Shown here piece by piece: positions 48,345 to 53,051 of a DNA stretch of 64,000 nucleotides (position 1 is the first letter of the stretch; every line of letters begins with the position of its first letter). Location: assembly GCF_000026145.1 (NCBI RefSeq), contig NC_009445.1, positions 7,377,001-7,441,000 on the forward strand, in the 5' to 3' direction. The position numbers and the translations under genes are program-made. The notes under the pieces are model-generated. The model saw only the letters and a list, made by a program, of their open reading frames with translations. It searched no databases and was not told the origin of the DNA. Source of the DNA: Bradyrhizobium sp. ORS 278. Lineage in GTDB: Bacteria > Pseudomonadota > Alphaproteobacteria > Rhizobiales > Xanthobacteraceae.

Positions 48345-49358
48345 TCACTCCGCCGCCTTGGCCATCTTTCCGAACACGCGCGTCGGCGCGGGGAAGCCGC
48401 AGGAGGTGCCGTCGGTGATCTTGACCTGGTCCTCCCAGGGCAGCCGGTAGGTGCCGGCGACCATGTCGTGCATGAAGGTGTACGGGCAATCCATCGCGCC
48501 GCCCTTCACCGCGACATAGCCGCGGTGCCAGAGCTGATAGATGTTGTTCTCGACGCCCCAGCCGATGCGCGCCTCGCGCACGAGATCGGGACGCACCTCC
48601 GCGGTGATAATCTCGTCGGCCCGGCCGGTCGTGCCGTGCGCGAGAATGCTGCCGTCGAAATTGACGATCATGCCCTCGCCCATCGAATCGAACGAGCCGT
48701 CGGAGCCGCACATACAGACGTTGGCGGTCACCATGAGATTCTGGAATGCATTCGCCTGGTTGGTGAAGCGCCAGCTGTCGCGGATCGGGGCGGTGTAGCC
48801 CGCCGTGCGGATCATGATCTCCGCGCCCTTGTAGGCGCATTCCCGCGCCATTTCCGGGAACATGCCGTCATGGCAGATGATCAGCGCGATCTTGGCGCCG
48901 CGCGGCCCCTCGATGACGGGAATGCCGAGATCGCCGGGCTCCCACGGCTCGACCGGGATCCACGGATGAAGCTTGCGATAGTACAGCTTGATCTCGCCAT
49001 TGCTGTCGATGATCAGGCCGGAATTGTAGGGATTGCCGTCGGGGTTGTACTCCATGATGGAGAAGCAACCCCAGATCTTGTTGTCGATGCAGGCCTGCTT
49101 GAACGCCGCGACCTCCGGCCCATCCAGCCGGCACATGATCTCCGGATTGGTGTCCATCGACAGCCCGTGCAGCGAATATTCCGGGAAGACGACGAGGTCC
49201 ATGGTGCCGAGATTGCGCCGGGCCTTGCCGACCATCCAGACGATCTTCTCGGTCTGCTTCGCGAGATCCTCCTTGGTCACGACGACCGGCAATTGGAGTT
49301 GCACGAGGCCGATGACCACGCCGTGTTCGGATTTGTTGAGACCGCCGAGCCCATTCAT
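48345..49358 (-). CDS. amiF: Formamidase
   Basis: The 337-residue nitrilase-superfamily enzyme has the Glu-Lys-Cys triad: VFPEYSLHG (Glu60), LYYRKLHPW (Lys129), ALIICHDGMFPEM (Cys162). Overall sequence resembles formamidase (formamide to formate and ammonia) more than aliphatic amidase. GGGAGG seven bases before ATG 49358 supports the start. The enzyme is cytoplasmic. No transporter lies next to it. Confidence 0.92.
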   Translation of the reverse strand: MNGLGGLNKSEHGVVIGLVQLQLPVVVTKEDLAKQTEKIVWMVGKARRNLGTMDLVVFPEYSLHGLSMDTNPEIMCRLDGPEVAAFKQACIDNKIWGCFSIMEYNPDGNPYNSGLIIDSNGEIKLYYRKLHPWIPVEPWEPGDLGIPVIEGPRGAKIALIICHDGMFPEMARECAYKGAEIMIRTAGYTAPIRDSWRFTNQANAFQNLMVTANVCMCGSDGSFDSMGEGMIVNFDGSILAHGTTGRADEIITAEVRPDLVREARIGWGVENNIYQLWHRGYVAVKGGAMDCPYTFMHDMVAGTYRLPWEDQVKITDGTSCGFPAPTRVFGKMAKAAE

Positions 49359-49471
49359 GCCGGACCTCCCTGTGTGGCTGCCACCTGAATTTTGACCAAG
49401 ACAACCACGATTTGGCGGACGCCGCGCGCCGATATTTCAGCGCGCGCTGCCGATTGCGCAGGCAGTTTCCG

Positions 49472-50035
49472 TCAGAGTGAGGGTGGCTGCTGCAGGCGTC
49501 GCTGAAGCCGCGCCAGCGCGCGGCCGAACACCGCGGCGTCGTTGGTCGCGCGCGCCAGCACCAGCGCGCCCTGGATGCCGAGCACCACCTCCTCGGCGCT
49601 GTCGGCCGCCTGGGCTACCGGCCAGCCGCCCCTCACCAGGGCATCGCGCAGCGCCTCGATCCAGCGGGTGAAATAGCTGGCGATCACGGCGGCGAAGCGG
49701 TCGCGGGTCTCGTCGAGCGCGAAGGCGCCGACCAGGCACACCCGGCGGCCGGAGCGGAAGTAGCCGTCGACGCCTCGCCACATCCGCGCGATCGCCAGGC
49801 CGGGCGCGTCGTCGCGCAACGGCGCATAGATCTCGCGCTCGAACCAGCCGTCGACGTGATCGAGCACCGCCCGCGCCATGTCGTCCTTCCCGCCGGGAAA
49901 GAAGTGATACAGGCTGCCTTTGCCGAGTCCGGTCGTCTCCGTGATGCGGCTGAGCGAGGTGCCCTCGAAGCCGTGCTCACGGAACACCTCGGCGATCAGC
50001 GGAATGACGTCGGCCCGCTCATATAGCGTGCGCAT
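49472..50035 (-). CDS. TetR-family transcriptional regulator
   Basis: The 187-residue protein has an N-terminal TetR helix-turn-helix (IAEVFREHGFEGTSLSRITE, TTGLGKGSLYHFFPGGKDDM) and a helical ligand domain. It follows the DUF1348 gene in the same direction with 12 bases between them, and the promoter of that pair holds a palindrome fitting a TetR operator. GGAG is found before ATG 50035. It likely represses its own operon until a small molecule binds. Confidence 0.9.
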   Translation of the reverse strand: MRTLYERADVIPLIAEVFREHGFEGTSLSRITETTGLGKGSLYHFFPGGKDDMARAVLDHVDGWFEREIYAPLRDDAPGLAIARMWRGVDGYFRSGRRVCLVGAFALDETRDRFAAVIASYFTRWIEALRDALVRGGWPVAQAADSAEEVVLGIQGALVLARATNDAAVFGRALARLQRRLQQPPSL

Positions 50036-50047
50036 GACGCTCCTGGC

Positions 50048-50509
50048 TTACAGTCCCAATTCGGTCAGGCCCGGATGATCATCCGGTCGGCGGCCGAGCG
50101 GCCAGTGGAATTTGCGCTCGGTCTCCTTGATCGGCAGATCGTTGATGCTGGCGAAGCGGCGCTGCATCAGGCCCTGCGCGTCGAATTCCCAATTCTCGTT
50201 GCCGTAGGAGCGGAACCAGTGGCCGCCGTCGTCGTGCCACTCATAGGCAAATCGCACGGCGATGCGATTGTCGGTGAAGGCCCAGATGTCCTTGATCAGC
50301 CGGTAGTCGAGCTCCTTGCGCCACTTGCGGGTCAGAAACGCGACAATCTCGGCCCGGCCGGTGATGAACTCGGCTCTGTTCCGCCAGCGGCTGTCGGGCG
50401 TGTAGACCATCGACACCCGCTCGGGGTCGCGACTGTTCCAGCCATCCTCGGCCATCCGCACCTTTTGTGTCGCCGTCTCCAGTGTGAAGGGCGGGGCAAG
50501 CGCAGTCAT
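50048..50509 (-). CDS. DUF1348 / NTF2-like protein
   Basis: The 153-residue protein has the DUF1348 opening ([40 protein letters not shown]) and the tail [23 protein letters not shown]2-like folds hold a small ligand or catalyse simple reactions; the reaction is unknown. A GGAG before ATG 50509 is clear. First gene of a two-gene operon with the TetR regulator. Confidence 0.88.
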
Positions 50510-50782: not shown

Positions 50783-52372
50783 ATGTCGATGCTCACGCCG
50801 CACGGCGAGTGCCTGCTGTGGACGCCTGAATTGATTTGGGTGAACGCAGTCTCCGACGTCCTTATTTCCGTCGCGTTCTTCACGATCGCTTTCGTGCTCG
50901 GCTACATCGTGTTTCGCCGCCGCGACTTCCAGTTCAGCTACATCTTCTGGGCGTTCGCGCTGTGGGTGTCCGTCTGCGGACTGACGCGCCTGATCGAGGT
51001 GCTCACGCTCTGGGTGCCGGCCTATGTGCTGGAGGCGGCGACGAAGGGCTTCCTGGCTTTCATGTCTGTCGGCATCGCCGCGGCGCTGATGCTCTTGTTG
51101 CCGAGGGTTCTGACGATGCCTTCGCGCGCCGATTTGAAGCTCGCCTATGCGCAGCTCGAGGAGGAGACGCGGCAGCGGCGCACCGCCGAGGCCATGGTCA
51201 AGCGCTTCCAGGAGATCGAGGCCACCGAGGCGCAGGTGCGTCAGGCGCAGAAGATGGAGGCGATCGGCCAGCTCACCGGCGGCGTCGCCCACGACTTCAA
51301 CAACATCCTGACCGTGATCACCGGCACGATTGAGATCCTCGCCGAGGCAGTGAAGGACCGTCCGCAACTGGTGCAGATCACCAGCCTGATCAACTCGGCG
51401 GCGGCGCGCGGCGCCGACCTCACCAAGCACCTGCTGGCCTTCGCGCGGCGCCAGCCGCTGCAGCCGCGCAGCGTCGACATCAACGGCATGGTGGTCGACA
51501 CCGCGCGGCTGCTGCGCCGGACCCTCGGCGAGCAGATCGAGATCGAATCGATGCTGGCGCACGATTCCGCGCCGGCGATGATCGACCCGAGCCAGCTGTC
51601 GACGGCGATCCTCAACCTCGCGCTGAACGCCCGCGACGCGATGCCGAACGGCGGCAAGCTCACGCTCGAGACCAAGAACGTCCTGCTCGACGACGCCTAT
51701 GCGCGAATGAATCCGGAGGTCATACCCGGCAACTACGTGATGATCGCGGTCAGCGACACCGGCGAAGGCATTCCATCCAATCTGCTGGACAAGGTGTTCG
51801 AGCCGTTCTTCACCACCAAGGACGTCGGCAAGGGCGTCGGCCTCGGACTCAGCATGGTGTACGGCTTCGTCAAGCAGTCCAACGGCCACATCAAGATCTA
51901 CAGCGAGCCCGGTCACGGCACGTCGGTGAAGCTGTATCTGCCGCAAGCTACGGCAGATGCTGACGTGCTGCTGCTGGAGGCCAGTCTGGCCAGCATGGAG
52001 CGCGGTGACGAAACGATCCTGATCGTCGAGGACGATTCGCTGGTGCGCGAATATGTCATTGCGCAGATCAAGCGGCTTGGCTACACGACCTTGGCCGCGA
52101 GCAAGGCCGACGAGGCGCTGTCGCTGATCGACAGCCCGGCGCGCATCGATCTCTTGTTCACCGACATCATCATGCCCGGCGGAATGAACGGGCGTCAGCT
52201 CGCGATCGAGGCGCTGAAGCGGCGGCCGAACCTGAAAGTGCTGTACACGTCCGGCTATACCGAGAACGCGATCGTGCATCACGGCCGCCTCGACGCCGGC
52301 GTGCTGCTGCTCACCAAGCCGTATCAGAGTGCGGATCTCGCCCGCATGATCCGGACCGCGCTGAACACGTGA
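50783..52372 (+). CDS. Hybrid histidine kinase with ethylene-receptor-like membrane sensor
   Basis: The 529-residue protein has three membrane helices that resemble the plant ETR1 ethylene-binding domain. With the start at ATG 50783 the pattern aligns by position: Asp25 (VSDVLISVAFF), Cys65 (SVCGLTRLIE), but Arg69 where ETR1 has the copper ligand His69. A coiled coil (about 115-155) leads to a HisKA domain (GGVAHDFNNI, His170), then an HATPase (LNLALNARDAMPNGG, DTGEGIP, GVGLGLSMVYG), and a receiver (ILIVEDDS, LLFTDIIMPGG with the phospho-Asp, LLTKPY). A TTG at 50768 is an alternative start. Confidence 0.9.
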   Translation: MSMLTPHGECLLWTPELIWVNAVSDVLISVAFFTIAFVLGYIVFRRRDFQFSYIFWAFALWVSVCGLTRLIEVLTLWVPAYVLEAATKGFLAFMSVGIAAALMLLLPRVLTMPSRADLKLAYAQLEEETRQRRTAEAMVKRFQEIEATEAQVRQAQKMEAIGQLTGGVAHDFNNILTVITGTIEILAEAVKDRPQLVQITSLINSAAARGADLTKHLLAFARRQPLQPRSVDINGMVVDTARLLRRTLGEQIEIESMLAHDSAPAMIDPSQLSTAILNLALNARDAMPNGGKLTLETKNVLLDDAYARMNPEVIPGNYVMIAVSDTGEGIPSNLLDKVFEPFFTTKDVGKGVGLGLSMVYGFVKQSNGHIKIYSEPGHGTSVKLYLPQATADADVLLLEASLASMERGDETILIVEDDSLVREYVIAQIKRLGYTTLAASKADEALSLIDSPARIDLLFTDIIMPGGMNGRQLAIEALKRRPNLKVLYTSGYTENAIVHHGRLDAGVLLLTKPYQSADLARMIRTALNT

Positions 52373-52490: not shown

Positions 52491-53051
52491 ATGGGTAAAG
52501 TGTTCGGACGCTGGCTGGCCGCCGTGCAGGCCTATGCATCCGCCGACGATCCGCAGTCCGACATCGCCGCGAAGGTCGCGCTGGTCATCGTCTCCAACCA
52601 GCCGTTCTACCCGCTGTATCTTCACGCCATCGCCGGCACGGCGGCATGGCCGGCCTGGCTGACCCTGATCACGACGCCATTGTTCGCCGCGGTGCCGGTG
52701 CTCGCCCGTCGCAATCCGTTCGCCGGCCGCGCTCTGATGGTGCTGGCCGGCACCGCGAACACGGTGTTCTGCGTCAAGCTGTTCGGCGCGCAGAGCGGCG
52801 TCGAATTGTTCCTCATCCCGTGCGCGCTGCTTGGTGCCCTGCTGTTCCGCCCGGACGAGCGCATCCCCTCCCTACCGCTCCTCGCGCTCCCCTTCGTATC
52901 GTATCTGTTGGTCGATTTCCGGCTCGGCGCGCCGGTGATGCGCGTCGCCGACGCCAGCTACGCCTCGCTGGTCTCCATCAACGCGATGAGCGTCGCCGCG
53001 CTGACCGCCCTGATCGGCCTGCTCGCCGCCGCGCGGATGGCGACGGAGTAG
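52491..53051 (+). CDS. Hypothetical membrane protein
   Basis: The 186-residue protein has about five hydrophobic segments (LYLHAIAGTAAWPAWLTLI, LMVLAGTANTVFCVKLFG, LFLIPCALLGALLF, LPLLALPFVSYLLV, VAALTALIGLLAAARM). GGAG five bases before ATG 52491 supports it. The family is not recognised. It follows the histidine kinase gene by about 118 bases. Confidence 0.72.
   Translation: MGKVFGRWLAAVQAYASADDPQSDIAAKVALVIVSNQPFYPLYLHAIAGTAAWPAWLTLITTPLFAAVPVLARRNPFAGRALMVLAGTANTVFCVKLFGAQSGVELFLIPCALLGALLFRPDERIPSLPLLALPFVSYLLVDFRLGAPVMRVADASYASLVSINAMSVAALTALIGLLAAARMATE

Follow-up and report, generated by a model that had tools for sequence, protein, structure and literature searches.

An arginine-for-histidine change at the copper-ligand position in an ethylene-receptor-type hybrid histidine kinase of Bradyrhizobium sp. 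ORS 278

The gene under study lies at positions 50783..52372 (+) of the window, the 64,000-nucleotide stretch of the Bradyrhizobium sp. ORS 278 genome that was analysed. It encodes a hybrid histidine kinase of 529 amino acids with the domain order ETR1_N, HisKA, HATPase_c and receiver, as judged by translation, Pfam and homologues. The start codon is backed by the homologues, with Met at that column in 118 of 121 sequences (the query and the best 120 of 160 homologues, its nearest relatives by design; hereafter the R69 alignment). The three-helix membrane domain ETR1_N (PF25487; residues 16–111, 50828..51115, +) was matched with an E-value of 3.7e-24 and 85.2 bits against a curated cut-off of 27, so that the profile similarity to ethylene-binding domains, on which the original prediction of an ethylene-receptor-like sensor depended, was found. 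The gene further encodes HisKA (residues 162–224, 51266..51454, +) with the phospho-acceptor His170 (51290-51292), HATPase_c (residues 268–389, 51584..51949, +) and the receiver (Response_reg; residues 412–523, 52016..52351, +) with the phospho-acceptor Asp461 (52163-52165). All three exceed their Pfam cut-offs. His170, N282 of the N-box and receiver D461 are each conserved in 110/110 sequences of at least 500 amino acids (110 of the 121 were compared), and the catalytic kinase and receiver sites in 108–110 of these 110; the phosphorelay domains are thus intact, as had been supposed from the sequence. A single-sequence AlphaFold2 model (mean pLDDT 74.1, pTM 0.44) places helices at residues 15–45, 49–77 and 80–110, which weakly suggests three N-terminal transmembrane helices, and contains nothing usable on the contacts of R69. 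No relative with a solved structure was found, the single match (E 0.48) being taken as chance.

Seven residues of ETR1 are treated here as ethylene-binding residues, namely D25, Y32, I35, P36, I62, C65 and H69, of which we take Y32 to be the seventh; the original alanine scan of ETR1 is reportedly that of Wang et al. 2006. According to the accessible text of PMC11819568, ethylene binding needs seven residues identified by alanine scanning of ETR1, D25 being listed among them. The accessible part of PMC6586836 names C65, H69, I35, P36 and I62 as binding residues and calls P36 essential, and that of PMC12643061 assigns D25, C65 and H69 to the copper site.

Translation confirmed that the window protein has D25 and C65 at the spacing of ETR1 and Arg at 69, likewise at this spacing. 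D25 (codon GAC, 50855..50857, +) is conserved in 121/121 sequences of the R69 alignment. C65 (codon TGC, 50975..50977, +), a copper-ligand position, is present here and in 111/121, the others carrying Ser (nine) or Gly (one). R69 (codon CGC, 50987..50989, +) replaces the second copper ligand and is found in 121/121, compared with His in 120/120 of the H69 relatives (the best 120 of 418 found from an Azospirillum receptor). The alignment that the original prediction had proposed as a check therefore found the Arg conserved, and because of this conservation among the query and the best 120 of 160 homologues it is neither a chance substitution nor a sequencing slip. Three further binding positions are altered: F32 (50876..50878, +) replaces the Tyr of the H69 relatives, presumably also that of ETR1 and SynEtr1 (F 114/121 vs Y 120/120), A36 (50888..50890, +) replaces Pro (A 121/121 vs P 120/120), and V62 (50966..50968, +) replaces Ile (I 13/121 vs I 120/120). 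Position 35 is Ile in the window protein and Thr in 105/121. The window domain thus keeps three of the seven binding residues (D25, I35 and C65) and has lost four (Y32F, P36A, I62V and H69R); it lacks both the complete seven-residue set and the Cys65/His69 pair of copper ligands, C65 being accompanied by Arg.

The changes extend over the binding face. In the 120 H69 relatives, D25, Y32, P36, I62, C65, H69, K88 and T91 are each conserved in 120/120. Eight sites conserved in H69 proteins (21, 32, 35, 36, 62, 69, 91 and 98) are lost in the R69 clade, and these share helix faces with D25, C65 and K88 (mean cosine 0.59 vs −0.05 for random sites, permutation p 0.002, assuming ideal helices with ends picked by the analyst). 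The R69 type has a conserved signature of its own (N21, F32, A36, R69 and L91), and R69, D25 and A36 stay at 121/121 even though the sensor identity to the query drops to 56%. Judged from these residues, the binding pocket is altered as a whole and not at a single residue. In the alignment with H69 proteins, no newly conserved His or Cys was gained by the R69 clade, and H21 and H69 were lost; H7 is the sole conserved His in residues 1–112. A conserved His elsewhere that could stand in for H69 beside Cys65, which would have spoken against the proposed ligand loss, was thus not seen in the alignment. C10 and H7 are as conserved in H69 proteins as in the R69 clade, and both precede the first long helix of the model.

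Among characterized receptors, AzoEtr1 of Azospirillum brasilense resembles the window protein in its three-helix N-terminal domain and histidine kinase output, and its D35, C75, H79 and K98 correspond to D25, C65, R69 and K88 with a constant offset of ten (accessible text of PMC11819568). K88 (51044..51046, +; 120/121), which the same source allows to be mapped to ETR1 K91, is accordingly the equivalent of AzoEtr1 K98. In contrast to the window protein with its three of seven, AzoEtr1 carries the full set of binding residues, H79 among them, and binds ethylene. A PAS domain and a response-regulator gene next to it (PMC11819568, same text) further set it apart from the window protein, which carries its own receiver and has no neighbouring gene conserved past close strains. 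Arabidopsis ETR1 and Synechocystis SynEtr1 share with the window protein the domain family, the helix order and the D25/C65 spacing, but their H69, P36 and I62 are replaced in it (accessible parts of PMC6586836 and PMC11819568). Unlike both, the window protein presumably signals by phosphorelay within a hybrid kinase. The domain is therefore placed in the ETR1_N family but outside the functional copper- and ethylene-binding domains, because the defining residues are incomplete. No mention of R69 ethylene-receptor-like kinases was found in the titles and abstract openings of the literature searched.

Three ETR1_N proteins are encoded in the genome. L001 (G000:C1:2015707) has the same order of ETR1_N, HisKA, HATPase_c and receiver as the window copy (L002), to which it is 49% identical over the full length and 46% in the sensor, and it keeps D25, Y32, I35, P36, I62, C65 and H69. 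As it retains the binding residues, it is likely the true ethylene receptor of the strain. L003 (G000:C1:5955103, outside the window) retains C65 and R69, whereas its residue 25 is His and its residue 88 Asp; its kinase part is 80% identical to that of the window copy, its fast-drifting sensor 37%, so that a kinase can outlast the decay of its sensor. The idea of a degenerate sensor fits this paralogue, which has lost D25 and K88. Ten L003-like sequences spanning all three positions (L003, L122, L123, L127, L221, P0242, P0244, P0246, P0247 and P0262; hereafter the drifted group) have lost D25 and K88 in 10/10 and kept R69 in 9/10. The placement of L127, which has Cys at 69, in this group is unsure because the kinase tree puts it with R69 rows. 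The record of P0254 begins past helix 1 and has Trp at 69. Among the genome loci of the whole clade, loss of D25 is confined to the drifted group. A search from the drifted paralogue (46 matches) added 18 members of the type, 15 with R69 and three with H69.

R69 copies were detected in 24/34 named genome loci, all 24 of them titled Bradyrhizobium. The remaining ten had H69 only and included two Bradyrhizobium, Tardiphaga, Azospirillum, Phenylobacterium, Polymorphobacter and a Ktedonobacterales genome. Since the scan patterns were built from the R69 clade, R69 copies may also occur outside Bradyrhizobium. A search of the family (296 genomes) with an R69 profile gave eight matches of at least 196 bits, all in Bradyrhizobium, and 15 lower-scoring matches that were left untyped. 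In the genus sample, 28/146 genomes have an R69 copy, and 17 of these 28 are without a full-length H69 copy. Mutual exclusion of the two types was considered and set aside, the counts (11/28 vs 71/118, Fisher p 0.057; made by hand, the 71 called H69 by score and not all typed) giving a weak trend only.

The R69 group forms one supported clade. Of the 146 rows of the EBD tree, 61 fall under a single branch with support 100; residue 69 is Arg in 59 of them, Cys in one and His in one. Left out of this tree were eight named matches (fragments, split genes and a full-length but divergent copy), a short row and the row duplicating the window, and the protein rows added to it were hand-picked and rich in members without C65. 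A kinase-only tree (102 rows), which took only proteins with the HDFNN motif, placed the R69, drifted and returned-His rows together on a branch of 56 rows (support 87).

Four clade members (P0250, P0266, P0267 and L082) have His69; D25, C65 and K88 are present in 4/4 and A36 in 3/4. In the kinase tree they are scattered over four positions within the R69 rows and hence look like returns. With His in these four members, R69 is not absolutely required. In L082:6001-9548, from a Bradyrhizobium metagenome assembly, two genes of the R69 clade lie in tandem, one with Gly65/Arg69 and the other with Cys65/His69 and still with F32 and A36. Among other diverged ETR1_N proteins, L224 and L225, from the same taxonomic order, have C65, R69 and A36 in common with the window protein but carry Glu at both 25 and 88, where it has D25 and K88. 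Their R69 is probably of separate origin, because they are far apart from the clade on long branches of a tree drawn up without 12 names and 46 loci (canonical copies almost throughout). In the sequences of L225 (848-2299, +) and L224, a PAS-like stretch and another type of kinase seem to come after the sensor. L213 combines R69 with S65, and further divergent members, whose alignment is less sure, have Q, N, D, E or F at 69. On far branches of the family, His69 is, as read from these alignments, lost repeatedly, and Arg is one outcome among several.

The charges around residue 69 were compared next to E84 (51032..51034, +), an acidic residue of helix 3 conserved in 121/121. The net charge over positions 25, 69, 84 and 88 is 0 in 38/38 R69 rows, which were selected for Arg and kept apart from the drifted group, and, with copper excluded, −1 in 65 and 0 in 23 of 88 H69 rows. 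It is 0 in 3/4 and −1 in 1/4 of the drifted-group loci, and −1, 0, 0, +1 and 0 in the drifted proteins P0242, P0244, P0246, P0247 and P0262. This suggests that the guanidinium group of R69 may substitute for the charge of the copper ion; the argument is only suggestive because a copper-bound C65 may be a thiolate. A coupled change of R69 and E84 was discarded as an idea, E84 being common in H69 relatives too (56/89 H69 loci rows), the genome's own H69 copy among those that have it.

The 38 rows chosen for Arg69 use CGC (25), CGG (8), CGT (4) and CGA (1) at codon 69, so the codon varies while Arg stays. The median dN/dS of the domain is 0.34 in these 38 rows and 0.18 in 41 H69 copies from Bradyrhizobium and its close relatives, which indicates weaker, still purifying constraint on the R69 domain. 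In a tree of the whole clade (49 genome loci, drifted rows included), residue 69 changed twice, residue 65 five times and residue 25 once; C65 was thus lost several times yet kept by most members. C65 is absent in 10/121 R69 and 0/120 H69 proteins (Fisher p 0.0016; best 120 of 160 plus the query, and best 120 of 418). With every usable locus row kept, C65 losses numbered three in a tree length of 5.7 (R69) and six in 54.4 (H69; p 0.047). A smaller set gave three in 6.4 (R69) and four in 52.9 (H69), and a set enriched by hand-picked proteins without C65 gave eight in 9.6 and four in 54.5; both had dropped 18 names, including the H69 rows L203 and L228 that lack C65, an omission that favoured the R69 reading and is restored in the count with p 0.047. 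With all divergent rows kept, the R69 clade exceeds the H69 proteins in C65 losses only modestly. The R69 rows behind the E84, codon, dN/dS, charge, and smaller and enriched C65 counts were selected for Arg69 with the drifted group out, while the R69 alignment, the EBD tree and the 49-locus count are unselected.

These data lead us to consider it rather probable that the gene encodes a neofunctionalised kinase of the ethylene-receptor type, whose domain would bind neither Cu(I) nor ethylene, would be maintained by selection as the input module of an intact hybrid kinase and would answer another signal. In a Bradyrhizobium ancestor, a receptor copy would have changed His69 to Arg and lost Tyr32, Pro36 and Ile62, after which the domain would no longer hold Cu(I) for ethylene and purifying selection would retain it as input of the kinase. 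Inside the bundle, R69 may pair with D25 and/or E84 in a buried charge network that would include K88 and would hold the helices together, so that a permanent positive charge would stand next to the place once taken by copper. The kinase would respond to a non-ethylene signal, most likely a membrane-dissolved compound or a membrane state, that would act, probably via the membrane, on helix 3 and the kinase, and the phosphoryl group would travel from H170 via D461 to an unlinked partner. The fuller reading is put forward tentatively, as plausible and a little short of probable: a copper-free sensor built in one genus from the ethylene-receptor fold, in which a buried Arg replaces the copper charge and the remodelled pocket serves a different membrane-phase signal, the drifted paralogues and the four His69 returns being further evolution. 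Of the options named in the original prediction, a different ligand fits best, because N21, F32, A36, R69 and L91 are conserved and the lost sites lie on the binding face; a different metal is unlikely, and a degenerate sensor is poorly supported for the window gene. Overlooked in the prediction were the further changes at positions 32, 36 and 62, the wide occurrence of the type in Bradyrhizobium and the intact H69 receptor encoded elsewhere in the genome.

It is unlikely, though worth weighing, that the helices form a ligand-blind membrane anchor that only holds the kinase dimer, the kinase being constitutive or set by a partner. L003, with its well-kept kinase and a sensor without D25 and K88, would suit such a role, as would the fact that neighbouring genes are not conserved past the nearest strains, but the conserved signature and the changes on the binding face exceed what an anchor needs. 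That the protein is still a copper and ethylene receptor, with Cu(I) held by C65 together with D25 or another donor, appears very improbable. C65 and D25 are kept in the window protein, C65 also in most sequences of the R69 alignment, and D25 belongs to the copper site with C65 and H69 in the accessible part of PMC12643061; against this, more than half of the seven binding residues are altered, including the P36 described as essential (accessible text of PMC6586836), and C65 changed more often in the clade than residue 69. We hold the view of a degenerate pseudo-sensor heading for loss to be equally remote. The dN/dS above that of the H69 copies, the repeated C65 losses and the existence of a drifted third group agree with it, yet for the window gene it is poorly supported, because the dN/dS of 0.34, the invariance of R69, D25 and A36 and the intact kinase speak otherwise, as do the synonymous changes at codon 69. 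A different metal held by C65 and other residues is hardly credible, because, although C65, C10 and H7 stay conserved, the latter two are no less so in H69 proteins and lie ahead of the first long helix, no new donor was gained, and with H21 and H69 lost H7 is the only conserved His.

The neofunctionalised kinase bears on annotation, as a domain match tends to be enough for bacterial ETR1_N proteins to be taken for ethylene receptors; domain-based annotation would credit 17 of the 28 R69 genomes with an ethylene receptor that they probably lack. The rewritten binding site is found in a whole clade of a soil- and plant-associated genus, and the clade offers a natural set of sensors (H69, R69, apparent H69 returns and drifted) for testing the role of copper in this fold.

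A conserved operon partner was also looked for and rejected, the window neighbours recurring only in the five nearest named strains; if frames that overlap the kinase gene are set aside, no neighbouring family was present in more than 12 of 42 R69 loci. Three consecutive genes at 48345-50509 (−), oriented divergently from the kinase gene, encode a DUF1348 protein, a TetR regulator and a formamidase (NF009803, 588 bits). Downstream, 52491-53051 (+) encodes a protein of 186 amino acids that consists almost entirely of a membrane sensor domain of the MASE7 type (28 bits, cut-off 26.2), with no detected output domain. This gene follows the kinase gene in five more named strains (L061-L065) and was not found beside the kinase in the other R69 loci compared. 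Elsewhere in the family, P0192 and P0198 combine canonical H69 domains with GAF and GGDEF domains and are candidate ethylene-controlled diguanylate cyclases.
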